37,162 nt of DNA from a virus. The stretch covers positions 1 to 37,162 of the IMG/VR virus record IMGVR_UViG_3300029922_000175; one strand, 5' to 3'. Of the stretch, positions 14,735-32,072 are shown piece by piece; positions within the stretch are counted from its first letter, which is position 1; every line of letters starts with the position of its first letter. Under the pieces are notes generated by a model, which saw nothing but the letters and a program-made list of their open reading frames with translations, had not been told where the DNA came from and did not search any database. A program made the position numbers and the translations under genes.

Positions 14735-16867
14735 TTAAAACTTTCTTAGCGGTAAATAATATGGAATAACTGTTCCAGCCAATCCAGTGGCGAAAATTTG
14801 CCATGGTGAGTAATTTGTAGTAGATGTAGAATCGGTTGTCATAATTCTGAAAATAACATTAGTACTCGCAGGGACTCCGGTAATAATTTCACTAGTACTT
14901 GTCGTTTGAGTTGCGTTTGTCCAAGTATTAACGGACGGAAAATTGGTCGTGAAATCTGTTGTCACGAATTGAGGGGTATATTGAACTGTTCCTGTTCCAT
15001 TTGTAGCCGTTGCCCAAGAAAGATTAACTGTTGTTCCATTGGTAGTTCCAGTAGGACTCGTATAAATTGTTGGAGTATAATCCCAGATAGATTGGAAAAA
15101 TATATTCGTATAATATGGCTGTCCCAAATAGGTGCAAAGGCCCATGCCTCCCGGCGCTTGTAAAGATGAAGTTGAATCACTAACTACCAAAGAAGGAGAC
15201 ATTACAATACCAGAAGTCATATTACTTACCGTCATTGTAATAACTGTTGGATTAATATTTGTTGAAATATTCGCGGTAACTCTCCACCATTTTGTTAAGT
15301 CAAGCGCGGAACCATATGTTATATTACCCAAACTTGTCGCGGTCCCCCCCACCACAGAGAATATTTCAGCTTTATTATCATATGTATGACTATTATCTGA
15401 AGTCAAAGTAATCAAATATAAATTACCATTTCCTTGCCCACGAGCGATACATTCCCACTCTGCAAATTCACTATTATATAATGTTGGACTTTGTGGTGGA
15501 ATATCAAATTGAATATACAAACCTAATGCATTAGGTAAGGTAGTTTGATAAAGTACAGCAGAACCATTTGGAATACCAACAAAAGAAACATTTCCAAGTC
15601 CTTGTATTAAATTATTTTGTCTTTGCCATACACCACTTACATCTATCATGGCGTTTTGAACTCCATAATAATTACCGACTGAATAACTACTGGCGGTAGT
15701 ATTGACTCCAGTACAAATAATAGACCATGTATAGTTTGGAATAGTAATATTTGTAGGGAACATCATAAAATTTCCTACTTGGGCGCGTTGTTGAGTAAGC
15801 TGATATGCGCCATTTTGTACACCAGAAAACAAACCGAAGTCTTCTTCATTTGTTAACCAGTTTGGGGCAATAGCCCAAATACCTTCTAATTGAAAGAATG
15901 GTTCTTGGGCAATGCCTTGGACTTGAGCAAAAAAATGTTGTCTTATTTCAGAAGAGTAAGGATGTACACTTTCGTTATCTGGGCCACTACCCCATACGCC
16001 GCTCATATTAATACCAGTTTCACCAAATACAATTGGCAGCCCATATTTATTGGTTACGGTTTGATACCAATCAGCCTGAGAATACATATAATACGAATGA
16101 ATGTCCAAATATGTTGCTCCTGATGCAACTAATTTAGCAGCAGCAGGTCGAGAATTTATATTCATATCTGTTGCTGAACTAGCACCATTTAAAGAGCAGG
16201 TAATAGGGACAATCCTTCCCGATTTTGCCATTCCAGCATTAGAGGCGGCAAACCATAATGGTTCATCAATTACAATCCAACTATTTGTTCCTCCAGTAGT
16301 TCCATCAACTTCTTGAATTATATCTATAGCGGGTATATTAGGATATAAAACGGCTTCCGCACAAAAATTACTAATGTATTGAAACATTAAATTAGTATCA
16401 AGATTTCCATCATATATTACCCTAGAATCAGAACATACTGGATAAAAATACATTCCATTAGTTTGACATAGATTAGCTATCATTCCAATTTCATTGGTTA
16501 AACCAACATAATTATTTGTTCCGCGCCACGTCGATGCGCCATGATGCGATGAGTCTCCAATAAACGTATCAGCACTCCACATTAAACGAACACAATTAGC
16601 TCCAATTGATTTAGCAGCTAATACTTGGGGAGTAATCCAATTTGTCCATTCATTTCCTGAAGGACCATTGTTAGTCCAATAGTAATCTTGGTCACCATAA
16701 TTGGCAGCTATGCCATATAAAGCACCATTACCTGAATCATTAGTGCCGGGGGTAATATTAGCCTCACGAAGACGAACGCCACCGATGTTAGGAAAAGCAA
16801 ATCTGTTTTGAGCATCTACGGTAATAAGACTTGCAAGTAGCAAGAATATGAATAGAAGTTTTTTCAT
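14735..16867 (-). CDS. Exported GH5-like glycoside hydrolase with C-terminal beta domains
   Basis: 710 residues. It begins with a Sec signal peptide (Lys-Lys, hydrophobic LLFIFLLLASLI, cleavage after VDA near 19). Residues about 25-390 look like a clan GH-A (beta/alpha)8 barrel, the fold of GH5 endoglucanases and mannanases: GVRLREANI, GANCVRLMW (89-97), then DIIQEVDG (Glu186, acid/base position) and IVFGETGI (Glu283, nucleophile position). Residues about 390-600 look like a laminin-G/concanavalin-type beta-sandwich and about 610-700 like a fibronectin type III unit. The product would leave the host cytoplasm and cleave a beta-linked polysaccharide; the substrate is unknown. Unlike virion depolymerases it carries an export signal. 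It is the last gene of the exported block. Confidence 0.75.
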   Translation of the reverse strand: MKKLLFIFLLLASLITVDAQNRFAFPNIGGVRLREANITPGTNDSGNGALYGIAANYGDQDYYWTNNGPSGNEWTNWITPQVLAAKSIGANCVRLMWSADTFIGDSSHHGASTWRGTNNYVGLTNEIGMIANLCQTNGMYFYPVCSDSRVIYDGNLDTNLMFQYISNFCAEAVLYPNIPAIDIIQEVDGTTGGTNSWIVIDEPLWFAASNAGMAKSGRIVPITCSLNGASSATDMNINSRPAAAKLVASGATYLDIHSYYMYSQADWYQTVTNKYGLPIVFGETGINMSGVWGSGPDNESVHPYSSEIRQHFFAQVQGIAQEPFFQLEGIWAIAPNWLTNEEDFGLFSGVQNGAYQLTQQRAQVGNFMMFPTNITIPNYTWSIICTGVNTTASSYSVGNYYGVQNAMIDVSGVWQRQNNLIQGLGNVSFVGIPNGSAVLYQTTLPNALGLYIQFDIPPQSPTLYNSEFAEWECIARGQGNGNLYLITLTSDNSHTYDNKAEIFSVVGGTATSLGNITYGSALDLTKWWRVTANISTNINPTVITMTVSNMTSGIVMSPSLVVSDSTSSLQAPGGMGLCTYLGQPYYTNIFFQSIWDYTPTIYTSPTGTTNGTTVNLSWATATNGTGTVQYTPQFVTTDFTTNFPSVNTWTNATQTTSTSEIITGVPASTNVIFRIMTTDSTSTTNYSPWQIFATGLAGTVIPYYLPLRKF

Positions 16868-16878
16868 TTTATTATTTT

Positions 16879-19800
16879 TTAAAACAATCTGAAAGACAAT
16901 GCGTTTTTTATTGGAGGCGCAATAGGTATTGCATTTACATTATCAAAAAATAATCCCTGTATAATTGCTGCTCCACCTTCGTAAAGGGTATATGTACCAC
17001 TAGTGTCAGTTGCCCACACTGAAGCATTGCCTCTAAACATAAATTGAAATAAATATGAATATCCATTCACTTGACTTTCATTATATTGAACACTTGAACC
17101 ATTTGTCGATGTCATACCTATAGAAAAATTTTGAGATTGATAAATGATAGCCGAACACTCTACTGTTAAATAATGCCAATTCGTATCCGTAACCGTTATG
17201 TTGATTGTACCGTTGGGATAGCCAGCCATTGCATTTACGACATTTGTATATCCGGTATTTCCGTCTACGGAAAATGTTCTAATTATATTTGTTCTATTTA
17301 TCCAACCAGAAGGAGCACCAATAGAAAAGTTTGTTGATGTAAAAATAAAGTTAGTACCGACACCACCAAAATCGTATAAAGCAAATCCATTGTAGCCGAT
17401 ATTTTCATTCCATAAGTGACCGAAATCATAATTATCTCTGTCTTGTACAGTGAAATTACCAGTATAATGAGTACTTGATTGTAATGAAGGAAGACCAAGC
17501 GACAAAGCATTTGAAGATACGTTATATTGGATTGTATTAAGTTCTCCTTCTGATGCTTGTCCAGTAGCTATAATAAATTGTGTGGTATCGTATGGCGTAA
17601 CTGATACTTGTTCTGATTTTATTCCCTCAATTCCACCGACAACAGCAGAAATTACAAAGTAATAAGTCATTCCATTAATTAAACCAGTAATTGTATCACC
17701 GGAAGCGCGGGGAGAATCGCTTAATAAAATATATGGGCCTCCGTTATTTGTAGTATAATAAATGTTATAATTATAAGCTCCACTGACTGAATTCCATGAC
17801 AACAAACATGAATTATTTAAAGGGAACGCTTTTAAGTTCGATGGGAAATTAAATGGTTGATTGGTAATTATAATAGAAGTACCGACGATTCCAGCTCCCC
17901 AATTTTCTCTAATATTACGGACGTTGATTAAGTGCCATCTTTGTGGGCCATGAGAATTTTCATCATTATGCCAAACATAATACTCCCCGTTTGTCTGGAT
18001 AAAATTTATACAAAACCCATTATCAGAAACAGATTGAACTGGTTGTTCATAATATTGGTGACCTGGATTCGCTTCTCCAAACTGACCAACAAATAATCCA
18101 TCATCCAAATATTGCATGAATTGACCAGCGCCACCACCATCTAAATAAAATTCTCCATGATAGCCAGCAATTATATTACGGTCTACACAGGCAACCATGT
18201 CACCACCGTAAGTAATACTATCACCAATATCATAATTGCCCGCGCCATTTAATGGACCTGAAGGTTCGGCTCGCCATAACCAGTTAGTTGTCCCACTAGC
18301 TATTCCACCTAAATGGAAACCAGCATTTAATGAAGGGTCATTTTGAATGTAAATTGCATTAGTACTTTGTGCTGCCGCTCCATAACCAACTCCACCAAAA
18401 CGATAATATGGGTCTAATGAATTTTGAGAAGCTAGTCCCACAAGTGAGGCTGCTCCCCATTGAGGATTATTAGAACCATCAAAATTAGTAAGTAATCGTT
18501 CATAAATAGTTGAACTACCCAAACTTTGACACCACGCATTTCCACTAGCATCAAAACTAGGAATTTGGTTAGTATATGCTAAAGCATTAAATGGATAGAT
18601 GCCAGTAAATCTAAGTCCTGTTCCTGTTAACTCACATATTTCTCCAACATGATTATTGTTATAAGTAGAGATATTAATATTAGTTCCATTATAAATTAAC
18701 GCATACGTTCTGCCATTCGTTAATGTAACAACATTATATAATCCCGGATAAGTTGGGTCTATATGATTAGTGTCTACATTAGAACACCAGTTAGTCACTA
18801 AAATCCAACTTTGTCCCAATGATTGATTATAATTAACTTGAAATTCGAGCCACTGATTAAATACATGAGACGGATTATTAAGGTCAACGGATGATTTATA
18901 ACTGTAGGGTTGATATACAATTTGTTCTAAATACGCTTGTGACCCATTAAAGTGCATGGCACGGTGATTATCCGCATCCGATACCCACCATGTGCCATCA
19001 CCCGCCCAGCGAACGAATCCCTGAGCATATCCATCTAAATCAAACCAAAATTTATTAGTAGTTATTGCGGGACCATTTGTTTGATACCCTCCCTGTAGTC
19101 CATAAACCCAAGTAAGGGTTCCGTTGGTAGCAAACATCTTAACTTGTTGATTGGTTCCGCCATCAGCTACAAGAATTTGATTTCCATTAGTAGGATTAAC
19201 TGAAATTCCTTCAGGATGACTTAATGTTAAAATATTTGTTTGTGCTCCGACCCCAATGGTTGTTGCGGTTGCATTTGTATATTGTATTATAGAATTAGAA
19301 GAACAGACCCATAAAGACCCATCTGGAGACCAAGAACAACGACCGGGACAGGGGGCTGACCAACTTTGTAAAGTTGAACCACTATGTTTATCAACTAAAT
19401 AAATAGTATTAGCATTAGAATTACAAATCGCTAATAAGCTTCCAGTTTGTTGAACATCCATACCACTTAATCCCGGTATTGTTCCAACATAAACGCCATT
19501 AGGCAGTACACCCGGATTCCAACCTAAACCCGGATTATTTGTTATTGTATAACCACTGGTAAATGTTGCTGATGAAAAATTAGTACAATTTGCAGCGACA
19601 ATACATCCAGCATAGGCATTATTTACTGCATTGCTGCCAGTAGATGCGGGATTAAATGTCGCTGTGCATGCATCATAAATCCAATTACTATCTGAACACA
19701 CAAAATCCCAATTTCGGTCATAGATATTTACTGGATTCTGTTCGGAATTTCCAGCACCGGGATAGGTTTCCATCCAGAACCATGCTTGTGAACAATTAGT

Positions 19801-20277
19801 TGGACTCCATGTATATGCTGAACTAAATGCCAACTTACCTTCGTCGTAACCGCGCACAAAATACATGTTCGTACCACTGATAGCCATATCGTGAAGAAAA
19901 TGAAAGCCCGTATGAACCGTATTGCCAAATTGAGCAGAGGAAGAATTTCCAATTGCCCCATCCCACTTATATAGGACATTATTTTCTAATACTTTAATTA
20001 CAATGTTTGAACCAACTGGAAGGGCATTTGTAAAATCATCAAATCCATCAAAATTACTGGTATACGTACCGGCGGATAATGATGATTTACTCCAAAGCGT
20101 TCTTATCTCTACCTGATTTGTTATAAAAGTTTGAGAAAGGAAATTACTTTGAACTTGTAGTGCATAAACTGCCGCACTAGTATTACAAGGTTCATCAAGA
20201 TTAAAAGAAAATTGAGTATTAACGGCTTGTAAGCAAAGCGTCGATGTCAAAAGTATGAGCGCAAATATCCACTTCAT
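16879..20277 (-). CDS. Giant exported beta-propeller/FnIII protein
   Basis: 1132 residues with an N-terminal Sec signal peptide (KWIFALILLTSTLC, likely cut near residue 18-20). Residues about 265-435 contain NHL/beta-propeller-like blades: RCSWSPDGSLWVCS, GISVNPTNGNQILVADGG and WAGDGTWWVSDADNHRAMHF. Residues about 805-895 form a fibronectin type III unit (LLSWNSVSGAYNYNIYY, ITGLINGMTYYFVISAV). The last 200 residues resemble a laminin-G-like sandwich. No catalytic motif is visible. It is very rich in Asn, Thr, Gly and aromatics, like surface proteins of soil and freshwater bacteria. It probably works outside the cell with the adjacent glycoside hydrolase, perhaps in binding polysaccharide. It precedes that gene by 12 bp in the same operon. 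Confidence 0.7.
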   Translation of the reverse strand: MKWIFALILLTSTLCLQAVNTQFSFNLDEPCNTSAAVYALQVQSNFLSQTFITNQVEIRTLWSKSSLSAGTYTSNFDGFDDFTNALPVGSNIVIKVLENNVLYKWDGAIGNSSSAQFGNTVHTGFHFLHDMAISGTNMYFVRGYDEGKLAFSSAYTWSPTNCSQAWFWMETYPGAGNSEQNPVNIYDRNWDFVCSDSNWIYDACTATFNPASTGSNAVNNAYAGCIVAANCTNFSSATFTSGYTITNNPGLGWNPGVLPNGVYVGTIPGLSGMDVQQTGSLLAICNSNANTIYLVDKHSGSTLQSWSAPCPGRCSWSPDGSLWVCSSNSIIQYTNATATTIGVGAQTNILTLSHPEGISVNPTNGNQILVADGGTNQQVKMFATNGTLTWVYGLQGGYQTNGPAITTNKFWFDLDGYAQGFVRWAGDGTWWVSDADNHRAMHFNGSQAYLEQIVYQPYSYKSSVDLNNPSHVFNQWLEFQVNYNQSLGQSWILVTNWCSNVDTNHIDPTYPGLYNVVTLTNGRTYALIYNGTNINISTYNNNHVGEICELTGTGLRFTGIYPFNALAYTNQIPSFDASGNAWCQSLGSSTIYERLLTNFDGSNNPQWGAASLVGLASQNSLDPYYRFGGVGYGAAAQSTNAIYIQNDPSLNAGFHLGGIASGTTNWLWRAEPSGPLNGAGNYDIGDSITYGGDMVACVDRNIIAGYHGEFYLDGGGAGQFMQYLDDGLFVGQFGEANPGHQYYEQPVQSVSDNGFCINFIQTNGEYYVWHNDENSHGPQRWHLINVRNIRENWGAGIVGTSIIITNQPFNFPSNLKAFPLNNSCLLSWNSVSGAYNYNIYYTTNNGGPYILLSDSPRASGDTITGLINGMTYYFVISAVVGGIEGIKSEQVSVTPYDTTQFIIATGQASEGELNTIQYNVSSNALSLGLPSLQSSTHYTGNFTVQDRDNYDFGHLWNENIGYNGFALYDFGGVGTNFIFTSTNFSIGAPSGWINRTNIIRTFSVDGNTGYTNVVNAMAGYPNGTINITVTDTNWHYLTVECSAIIYQSQNFSIGMTSTNGSSVQYNESQVNGYSYLFQFMFRGNASVWATDTSGTYTLYEGGAAIIQGLFFDNVNAIPIAPPIKNALSFRLF

Positions 20278-26152: not shown

Positions 26153-26181
26153 AGTGTCTCAAAATTTAATTAAAATGTCAA
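26153..26181 (-). promoter_or_regulatory. Leaderless-type promoter
   Basis: TTGACA, 17 bp, GACACT, 6 nt, ATG. The region matches the next promoter upstream over GAGTTGACATTTTAATTAAA. Confidence 0.65.
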
Positions 26182-26322
26182 CTCTTTTTCCCATTGTACA
26201 ATGTTAGCTTTAATTTCCGCTATTTTACTTTCATTGCGTGTTTTTTCACCCAATAACCACAGCAAATTAGTTTTGGCAAATTGAATTTGAAACCGGAGAT
26301 TTTTTTCGGGTGAATTGTGCAT
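26170..26322 (-). CDS. 50-residue helical microprotein
   Basis: Frame of 50 residues, predicted almost entirely helical (RFQIQFAKTNLLWLLGEK, ESKIAEIKANIVQWEKEL), with a coiled-coil-like pattern. The start is fixed by a promoter whose -10 box ends 6 nt before the ATG. The stop overlaps the next promoter's -35 region. Confidence 0.62.
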   Translation of the reverse strand: MHNSPEKNLRFQIQFAKTNLLWLLGEKTRNESKIAEIKANIVQWEKELTF

Positions 26323-26328
26323 ATAAGT

Positions 26329-26357
26329 ATTGTGGTTTAATTTAATTAAAATGTCAA
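26329..26357 (-). promoter_or_regulatory. Leaderless-type promoter
   Basis: TTGACA, 17 bp, CACAAT, 6 nt, ATG of the 50-residue gene. The -35 overlaps the stop of the 80-residue gene. Confidence 0.72.
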
Positions 26358-26358
26358 C

Positions 26359-26601
26359 TCATTTTGAAACAATTTTTGCCGTTTGCGTGCTTCCGTCCAA
26401 CATGCGGTAAAACACAATTTCCATCCTGTCACTGTTCCAACAAGAAAAGATGAACTTGCGACCTTCAAACAATAAAACCTTTTTGGTTAACTTTTTTACT
26501 TCGTCCCACCCGTTTATTGGAAAGGATAAAAATTCGCGGCCAAAATCAGGCCGGATTGTGTGATTTACAAATATTTCATCGGGGACAATTGTTGCTTTCA
26601 T
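26359..26601 (-). CDS. Hypothetical small protein
   Basis: 80 residues, mixed: VPDEIFVNHTIRPDFGREFL, then a basic VKKLTKKV helix and a beta-rich end (RKFIFSCWNSDRMEIVFYRM). Own promoter, 7 nt from -10 to ATG. No family assigned. Confidence 0.62.
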   Translation of the reverse strand: MKATIVPDEIFVNHTIRPDFGREFLSFPINGWDEVKKLTKKVLLFEGRKFIFSCWNSDRMEIVFYRMLDGSTQTAKIVSK

Positions 26602-26947: not shown

Positions 26948-27490
26948 ATGATTAAACAAGATTTAATTGGTAAAACATTCGGACAAGGTAAGGTAACAAA
27001 ATTTGTTGGCAATAAAAGGCGCGGTAATACTTCAAACCGTTCTTGTAGGGTGTGGGAATTAACATGTTCTTGTGGTAATACATATCAGGCAATAACAGAA
27101 TTTTTAAATAATGGTGACGTAAGTTCTTGTGGTTGCCAAAAAAAGCTATTTCAAAGACACAACAAAACAAAAACTACAATTTCAAGATACCTTAAACATT
27201 TACGTTATGATGCTAAAGCGCGAAAAAGACAATTTAATATTACTATAGAACAATTAAATGATTTAATGACAAAACAAGATAATAAATGCGCCTTATCTGG
27301 TTTACCCGTTTCTTTTGATGATTCAAGCGCTTCATTAGATAGAATTGACAATAGTCAAGACTATTTTATTAATAATGTCCAATGGGTTCACCGTAAAATT
27401 AATTACATGAAAAATACATTGGAACAAAATGATTTTATTGAATTATGCCGTTTTGTGTCTCTCAAAAATACCGCTCTTTTTAAGAGTTGA
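26948..27490 (+). CDS. HNH homing-type endonuclease
   Basis: 180 residues. The N-terminal half has paired Cys (LTCSCG at 39-43, SSCGCQ at 59-64), a zinc site seen in many phage HNH proteins. The HNH core is at about 110-160: NKCALSG, then SLDRIDNSQDY, NNVQWVH and KINYMKN. Such enzymes nick or cut DNA and often spread by homing. It is one of two plus-strand genes in the window, inserted between minus-strand genes, and its last 48 bp overlap the 3' end of the convergent Gp88-like gene. This fits invasion by a mobile gene. I see no intron or intein around it. Confidence 0.85.
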   Translation: MIKQDLIGKTFGQGKVTKFVGNKRRGNTSNRSCRVWELTCSCGNTYQAITEFLNNGDVSSCGCQKKLFQRHNKTKTTISRYLKHLRYDAKARKRQFNITIEQLNDLMTKQDNKCALSGLPVSFDDSSASLDRIDNSQDYFINNVQWVHRKINYMKNTLEQNDFIELCRFVSLKNTALFKS

Positions 27491-30399: not shown

Positions 30400-30448
30400 G
30401 AAACTATTTACAACCAGTAAAGAGAAAATAGATTATTTATTTGAATTA

Positions 30449-30586
30449 TTTTTGTTTAATTTAAAGCTGGTCGGGTGCGACGAGTGAGTAGGCATGCTTT
30501 TACCTGTTTACATCAGGGCATCTATGACGGCTCTTTATTGTGTAAATACAATATCACCCAACCAGCAAAATTTTTTGTTTAATTTA
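30449..30586 (-). repeat. Foldable element with inverted ends and flanking direct repeats
   Basis: Two exact 15-bp direct repeats, TTTTTGTTTAATTTA (30449-30463 and 30572-30586), bracket a 101-nt core. The core ends are 12-bp inverted repeats, GCTGGTCGGGTG (30466-30477) and CACCCAACCAGC (30555-30566). On the minus strand their one mismatch becomes a G-U pair. Inside, TATTGT/ACAATA gives a hairpin. TAGATGC..CCTG pairs with CAGG..GCAT(GC)CTA to give a second arm, so the RNA folds as a three-way junction. No reading frame is present. It could be a MITE-like insertion with target duplication or a structured regulatory RNA before the HExxH gene. Confidence 0.55.
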
Positions 30587-30763
30587 TTAATCGGCGCATT
30601 CGTCGATGCTACCTAATTCGTTATTTCCGCGCCAACACATCCATTTCCAACCAATCACAGCAATCAAACACCATACAGCAAAAACACCTATCATAAAACA
30701 AGCATAAACAAACCTCAATTTATCTTCAAGGAGTGTTTTGTATAGATTTTTAATTATTTTCAT
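30587..30763 (-). CDS. Single-helix membrane protein
   Basis: 58 residues from ATG 30763; an upstream extension exists but overlaps the previous gene more. A basic helix (KIIKNLYKTLLEDKLRF) is followed by a membrane segment FVYACFMIGVFAVWCLIAVI and a hydrophilic acidic tail. Its start overlaps the end of the 54-residue gene by 14 bp. Function unknown. Confidence 0.55.
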   Translation of the reverse strand: MKIIKNLYKTLLEDKLRFVYACFMIGVFAVWCLIAVIGWKWMCWRGNNELGSIDECAD

Positions 30764-30914
30764 ACAACCAAAGTTCAGCATCAGTAAACGTACTATAACA
30801 AACATTTAAATTACTACGTTTATTAAGTGTCCTATCTTTAAAATTTCTCCAAAATAGGAACTTCTTGTATTGACAGTAATACATTCCATTTTGGTATTTA
30901 ATTCGTGTTTTCAT
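30750..30914 (-). CDS. 54-residue basic protein
   Basis: Frame MKTRIKYQNGMYYCQYKKF, then WRNFKDRTLNKRSN and a YSTFTDAELWLYENN end. It is rich in aromatics and basic residues. It follows the zinc-ribbon gene by 10 bp and overlaps the membrane-protein gene by 14 bp. Confidence 0.6.
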   Translation of the reverse strand: MKTRIKYQNGMYYCQYKKFLFWRNFKDRTLNKRSNLNVCYSTFTDAELWLYENN

Positions 30915-31141: not shown

Positions 31142-31163
31142 AAATTTATTAAATTAAATTAAA

Positions 31164-31195
31164 TTTGTGGCCGACGAGTTACCGCCGACCACAAA
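31164..31195 (-). promoter_or_regulatory. 13-bp leader hairpin
   Basis: On the minus strand TTTGTGGTCGGCG and CGTCGGCCACAAA pair fully (two G-U wobbles) around a GTAACT loop. On the plus strand the wobbles become mismatches, which points to function as minus-strand RNA. It lies in the leader between the promoter at 31231 and the ATG at 31141. No U-run follows, only AT-rich sequence. Confidence 0.6.
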
Positions 31196-31230
31196 TGGGA
31201 ACCATCACCGAGGTCTCATGTAACAAATAC

Positions 31231-31646: not shown

Positions 31647-31702
31647 TTACAAACCATCTACAAACCAACTACAATCCAATCACAAACCCATCTATAATCC
31701 AA
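31647..31702. repeat. Five iteron-like direct repeats
   Basis: Five tandem units of 11-12 bp with the form [C/T][T/C]A[C/T]AA[A/T]CCAA: TTACAAACCAT, CTACAAACCAA, CTACAATCCAA, TCACAAACCCAT and CTATAATCCAA. The 11-bp period would place them on one face of the helix, as expected for sites of a repeat-binding protein. Confidence 0.6.
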
Positions 31703-31906
31703 TTCACTTCACTCAAATCATTCCCTATATCCATTCCTATCTTAACACTGTTTAAGCACAAGTCAAATTAATACCTAAATCATTTAAAATCAACAGCATG
31801 CACTTAAATCAATTATTAAGATTCTCTTAACGCTCTACAATGAGATTTAAGACACCACCACACCAAAACCTACCCACATTCATTCCAGTAATCAAAATCG
31901 TTTGTA

Positions 31907-32034: not shown

Positions 32035-32072
32035 AAAAACAGACGCGAGACCTAGTAAATCCCGCGCCTGTT
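32035..32072 (-). terminator. Probable intrinsic terminator
   Basis: On the minus strand AACAGGCGCG and CGCGTCTGTT form a 10-bp stem (one G-U) with a 15-nt loop, followed by a T-run and TATATATA. It would end the transcript of the 111-residue gene before the non-coding island. Confidence 0.65.

Follow-up and report, generated by a model that had tools for sequence, protein, structure and literature searches.

Comparative examination of an intergenic gap in a phage contig indicates, with slightly better than even confidence, that it encodes a small structured noncoding RNA on the minus strand, which would be free-standing and act in trans and is so far represented in two phages of one terminase lineage. 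The window, by which we mean the whole 37,162-nt stretch analyzed, is a linear IMG/VR contig whose relatives were gathered via the terminase. Given that a distant relative carries a copy with a compensating change in the stem, at an unrelated genomic place and with a promoter-like signal, the element is probably an uncatalogued small phage RNA and not a switch of the neighboring gene. We rate as about even the further proposal that the two members found to date belong to a novel family of phage RNAs, structured and free-standing, that is defined by a long closing stem and a AGAGCCGUC box and has a dedicated role in infection, such as titrating a host factor. For uncultured phages, small structured RNAs have hardly been catalogued, and candidates are mostly indistinguishable from chance hairpins. 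The distant second copy lifts one hairpin-rich gap above chance and shifts the question from an effect on the next gene to what the RNA binds; should metagenomes supply further members, modeling and direct tests of the family would become feasible.

The element and its predicted fold

The element lies in a 188-nt gap between the stop codon of a small upstream ORF (30587) and the start codon of an HExxH ORF (30399) on the same strand (Table 1). Its letters agree with the earlier description of 12-bp inverted ends that close a gene-free 101-nt core: there is no ORF of at least 60 aa in 30464-30571, and the overlapping frames, of at most 44 aa, are incidental. The two ends pair as a 12-bp closing stem (P1), whose single mismatch is U-G on the minus strand and C-A on the plus strand.

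Table 1. Positions of the element, its predicted parts and its neighbors in the window
Feature	Position	Strand	Remarks
Direct repeat copy 1, TTTTTGTTTAATTTA	30449..30463		2 nt from the stem
Direct repeat copy 2, TTTTTGTTTAATTTA	30572..30586		5 nt from the stem, directly past the upstream ORF's stop codon (stop at 30587)
Structured element, 101 nt	30466..30566	minus, read 30566 to 30466	strand and limits fixed by the G008 copy
P1 5' arm, GCUGGUUGGGUG	30555..30566	minus	pair probability 0.98-1.0; 8 of the first 10 letters the same in G008
P1 3' arm, CACCCGACCAGC	30466..30477	minus	from the fold; CCCGACCARC retained in G008
Hairpin A, UAUUGU-AUUUAC-ACAAUA	30536..30553	minus	pair probabilities 0.86-0.99
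Conserved box, AGAGCCGUC (9 nt)	30526..30534	minus	between hairpin A and the 3' half; identical in G008
Tentative hairpin B, AGGUA-AAAGCA-UGCCU	30490..30505	minus	pair probabilities 0.77-0.91; no covariation support
Upstream small membrane-protein ORF	30587..30805	minus	start possibly at 30763
Neighboring HExxH ORF, 102 aa	30091..30399	minus	homologues in G012 and G008 without an element upstream

The earlier note had pictured a three-way junction with two inner hairpins. Pair-probability analysis reveals that hairpin A is firm, whereas elsewhere the interior can adopt several almost equally good folds; hairpin B is ambiguous, and the minimum-free-energy structure is a four-way junction. The note had also read the G-U pair, present only on the minus strand, as a sign of selection as RNA. 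The letters are as it described, but the strand argument taken alone is weak, since it concerns one site with a 50:50 prior. The two strands fold equally stably (z against shuffles of -3.6 on the minus and -3.5 on the plus strand), so that thermodynamics picks no strand. Furthermore, folding energy alone is unpersuasive, because a scan of the window recovered several other intergenic sites with equal or better z, below -3.5. Stems of 12 bp at the element's spacing arise about 2.4 times per simulated window; G+C-rich ones (at least 16 of 24 letters G or C) occurred in none of 20 simulated windows, and the stem of the element has 17. Elsewhere on the minus strand of the window, strong terminator-like hairpins are seen at 31163-31196 and 32038-32072.

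Consistent with the earlier statement that no known riboswitch or ribozyme is recognizable, Rfam 15 gave no family for the window at the gathering threshold, nor for the second copy described below; when matches to the window with E up to 10 were admitted, the best was a snoRNA with 14.7 bits against a threshold of 70 bits. ARAGORN detected no tRNA or tmRNA in the window or in the piece of the second phage that holds the other copy (L108), and BLAST of the element against phages and plasmids returned short matches only, mostly to the AT-rich flank. Three resemblances were rejected: a hammerhead (CUGAUG/GUC, minus strand), whose core is by inspection incomplete and which is missing from the second copy; an attC-like site (RYYYAAC/GTTRRRY), which on inspection has reversed orientation; and group II domain V (GAGCCGU), the complementary half of which is absent.

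A second copy in a related phage

As the earlier note had suggested, the core was searched for with a covariance model, here built from the window sequence alone, and one extra full-length match was recovered in 0.8 Mb of relatives. It lies in phage G008 (IMG/VR contig IMGVR_UViG_3300023184_009677), whose terminase is about 70% identical to that of the window phage. The match itself (44203-44088, minus strand, 12 bits, E 4.8) is weak alone; the element there spans 44090-44198 on the minus strand, with the P1 arms GUUGGUCGGG and CCCGACCAAC and the AGAGCCGUC box inside. The distance from the box to the CCC of the 3' arm is exactly 50 nt in both copies. A scan for long G+C-rich intergenic stems in the relatives (about 0.75 Mb) yielded 7 rows, among which the window and G008 are the only pair with common arms and box.

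Comparison of the two stems reveals that 10 pairs are kept, one is compensatory (C-G to U-A) and one is changed on one side (U-G to C-G); with two sequences only, the covariation depends on the single compensatory pair. The in-register 9-mer recurred in 5 of 20000 shuffles of the G008 interior, and the arms, which agree in 8 of 10 letters, have a P between 0.0005 (uniform letters) and 0.03 (shuffled arm). The G008 copy folds with a z of -3.9 against shuffles. Beyond the box and arms the interiors are near chance identity (34/81 in register, with the box counted) and their predicted folds differ; a hairpin at the place equivalent to hairpin A is found in G008 only as a near-optimal alternative. 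Most of the box is paired in the fold predicted for G008, and its state in that of the window is mixed, so the folds do not establish it as an exposed seed.

These features also bear on whether the element is a G+C-rich hairpin of the ordinary intergenic sort, matched in G008 through a coincidence of the search. The E value of the covariance-model match taken alone and the comparable z of several other sites in the window would fit such an origin; we nevertheless regard it as very improbable, since the arms, box and 50-nt spacing agree jointly with a P of about 1e-7 to 8e-6, a multiplied estimate before about ten candidates are allowed for. The homology of the two copies is well supported at the level of sequence comparison.

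A site acting as DNA, where a phage protein would bind a cruciform or paired half-sites, for instance in replication or recombination, is quite unlikely. The long inverted repeat with AT-rich flanks and the equal folding of both strands are compatible with such a site, as is a nearby gene-poor region, at about 31.5-32.15 kb, with 11/23-bp repeats (31648-31703) and a dip in GC skew, which is possibly origin-like. However, the P1 arms of the two copies are spaced 8 bp differently, out of helical phase, an altered base in one arm has its counterpart in the other, and single arms recur in these genomes only as stray one-mismatch matches.

Genomic context, flanking repeats and mobility

Gene neighborhoods provide the main evidence on the earlier proposal of a structured RNA controlling the HExxH gene. 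In the window the element precedes the HExxH start codon directly on the same strand, and the P1 5' arm could face competition from another copy of CUGGUUG (30411-30421), as might be expected of a riboswitch-like or thermosensor-like leader acting in cis. In contrast, the element of G008 is located between GP88 and a small ORF, and the HExxH homologue of this phage (30225-30509, plus strand) is about 14 kb away on the opposite strand, with no element upstream. In a further relative, G012, the order is a zinc ribbon, other small genes, a small membrane protein and HExxH; the gap before the last is about 11 nt and contains no element. Given these homologues without an element and the different position of the G008 copy, control of the HExxH gene is unsupported. 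In G008, moreover, a separate leaderless-type promoter intervenes before the next gene, past the element region, and Rfam gave no riboswitch match at E up to 10. A cis-acting leader is accordingly very unlikely; the neighborhoods remain compatible with an insertion or with a free-standing RNA. Thus, the RNA part of the earlier proposal gains from the second copy, which keeps the stem with a compensatory change and the 9-nt box, and the control part finds no support in G008 and G012.

The sequence preceding the G008 copy contains a sigma-70-like promoter, TTGACT-16-TATCTT, that ends 6 nt ahead of P1, with its predicted start on the first base of the stem. Promoter-like sites of this quality (9/12) are found on each strand about every 375 nt, and the chance of this placement is estimated at about 1%. 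No promoter-like signal is seen at the matching place in the window. Past the G008 element come a short hairpin, a second structure and then the leaderless-type promoter of the next gene. The second structure (L108:3945-4046; G008 43945-44046, minus strand) directly follows the element, is unrelated to it and has a closing stem of 11 to 12 bp; it has no relative in the window or the 37 phage records searched. Leaderless-type starts, with TTGAC(N)-16/17-TAnnnT ending 6-7 nt before ATG, also occur on the minus strand of the window at 20-37 kb: a strict rule identifies them at 6 of 39 genes, against a mean of 0.48 and a maximum of 2 in shuffles, more are apparent by eye, and Shine-Dalgarno-like motifs precede only 2 of the 39.

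A 180-aa ORF on the plus strand of the window (26948-27490) is opposed to its minus-strand neighbors and overlaps the end of the GP88 gene; by eye it has the look of an HNH-type endonuclease, with no Pfam match, and in G012 an HNH-like ORF next to the HExxH gene is opposed in a similar way. Two long ORFs (710 and 1132 aa, within 14735-20277) have signal-peptide-like starts and weak fn3 and NHL matches, and no relatives of them were found in 15 related phages compared.

MITE-like elements are characterized by terminal inverted repeats, flanking direct repeats and the lack of a gene, and the window copy has all of these. The 15-bp direct repeats that had been noticed around it are confirmed as 100% identical, with a chance P of about 7.5e-4 for two 60-nt flanks of like composition. 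The P1 arms could then be the terminal inverted repeats of a small non-autonomous element whose target-site duplication is the pair of 15-bp repeats, and G008 would carry an old insertion of it. The unrelated places of the two copies would suit this, as would the matching order of small membrane protein and HExxH in G012, which fits insertion in the window without being proof. The earlier call for other copies and empty sites produced one further phage copy and, in G012, an element-free gene order with an unalignable flank.

Several observations nonetheless make the earlier reading of a MITE-like element with target duplication weak, and we consider it unlikely. There is no direct repeat around the G008 copy, where the longest common word is 6 nt and not adjacent on both sides; the interiors are not kept, having only the 9-nt box in common; and the window repeats are asymmetric with respect to P1. 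The other long AT-rich direct repeat of the phage, a 22-bp exact one with GAGTTGACATTTTAATTAAATT at 26163-26184 and 26339-26360, is plainly duplicated promoter sequence. Pairing predicts compensatory change in the stem, of which terminal repeats have no need.

Nor is there any multi-copy spread in the IMG/VR patterns or the whole-contig model searches, and the window holds one copy. The window and G008 are the only members found in IMG/VR: both exact arms gave no matches there, arms plus box gave G008 and one G+C-rich chance match, and box plus 3' arm gave 20 matches, the only real one being G008. With the arms alone, the only other candidate of note among the matches listed was an intergenic stem on a 5.8-kb contig (L298:1830-1933; 15 bp, AATTGGCTGGTCGGG/CCCGACCAGCCAATT), which has the same 10-nt arm but no AGAGCCGUC box and is not counted as a member. 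In GTDB genomes an exact-pattern scan for arms plus box had 25 matches, of which none was accepted, either for want of an extended P1 or, in a Neisseria record (L196), because the match is an unrelated inverted repeat. No third copy was found among terminase, HExxH and GP88 relatives, and the four closest phages (84% terminase identity) have neither the element nor the HExxH gene.

Proposed function and relation to known systems

In light of the above, we return to a free-standing RNA acting in trans and propose that its long G+C-rich P1 pairs the RNA ends, which would protect the molecule and present the inner branched domain. In G008 the element would be an independent gene, with transcription predicted to start on the opening base of P1. 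In the window it is probably cotranscribed with the small genes upstream and may be freed from their transcript by processing. The box region would bind a protein or RNA partner in trans, and the neighboring HExxH gene would not be switched. Sites complementary to the box, with at most one mismatch, occur at no second place in the window, and G008 has no shared target, so pairing with phage mRNA is unsupported; a host RNA or protein would be the more likely candidate partner. We infer, from these comparisons, the transcription of the element, its processing in the window, its action in trans and its partner.

The pRNA of phi29 has paired ends, a branched interior with hairpins and complementary loops, and is encoded beside the packaging ATPase. 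The element is alike in its paired ends and branched interior with hairpins, and in the window the loop of hairpin A (UUUAC) complements a later GUAAA, 5 bases by inspection; in G008 this complementarity is not clearly kept, about 4 A-U pairs being possible. It differs in having no Rfam match, in belonging to another phage family with another terminase and in not being located beside terminase or packaging genes. The MITE-like elements differ from it on the side of the G008 copy, which is repeat-free, and in copy number and conservation of the interior. Structured motifs carried by phages include manA, wcaG and the c4 antisense RNA, of which manA and wcaG have been proposed to act as leaders for metabolic genes (PMC2864571). 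Like these, the element is a phage-borne structured RNA recovered by comparative genomics; unlike them, it matches no Rfam family and has no constant downstream gene. Phages also encode small RNAs, as set out in a review (PMC12197685). With these, the element shares its nature as a short intergenic RNA candidate in a phage and, in G008, a promoter-like signal; it differs in being a predicted RNA and in having no sequence or structure match to Rfam. Neither the phage small RNAs nor the structured motifs described in these two papers resemble the element in the comparisons made. Together, with no Rfam match for either copy, these comparisons suggest that the element is a candidate for a new family within a known kind, the phage small RNAs.
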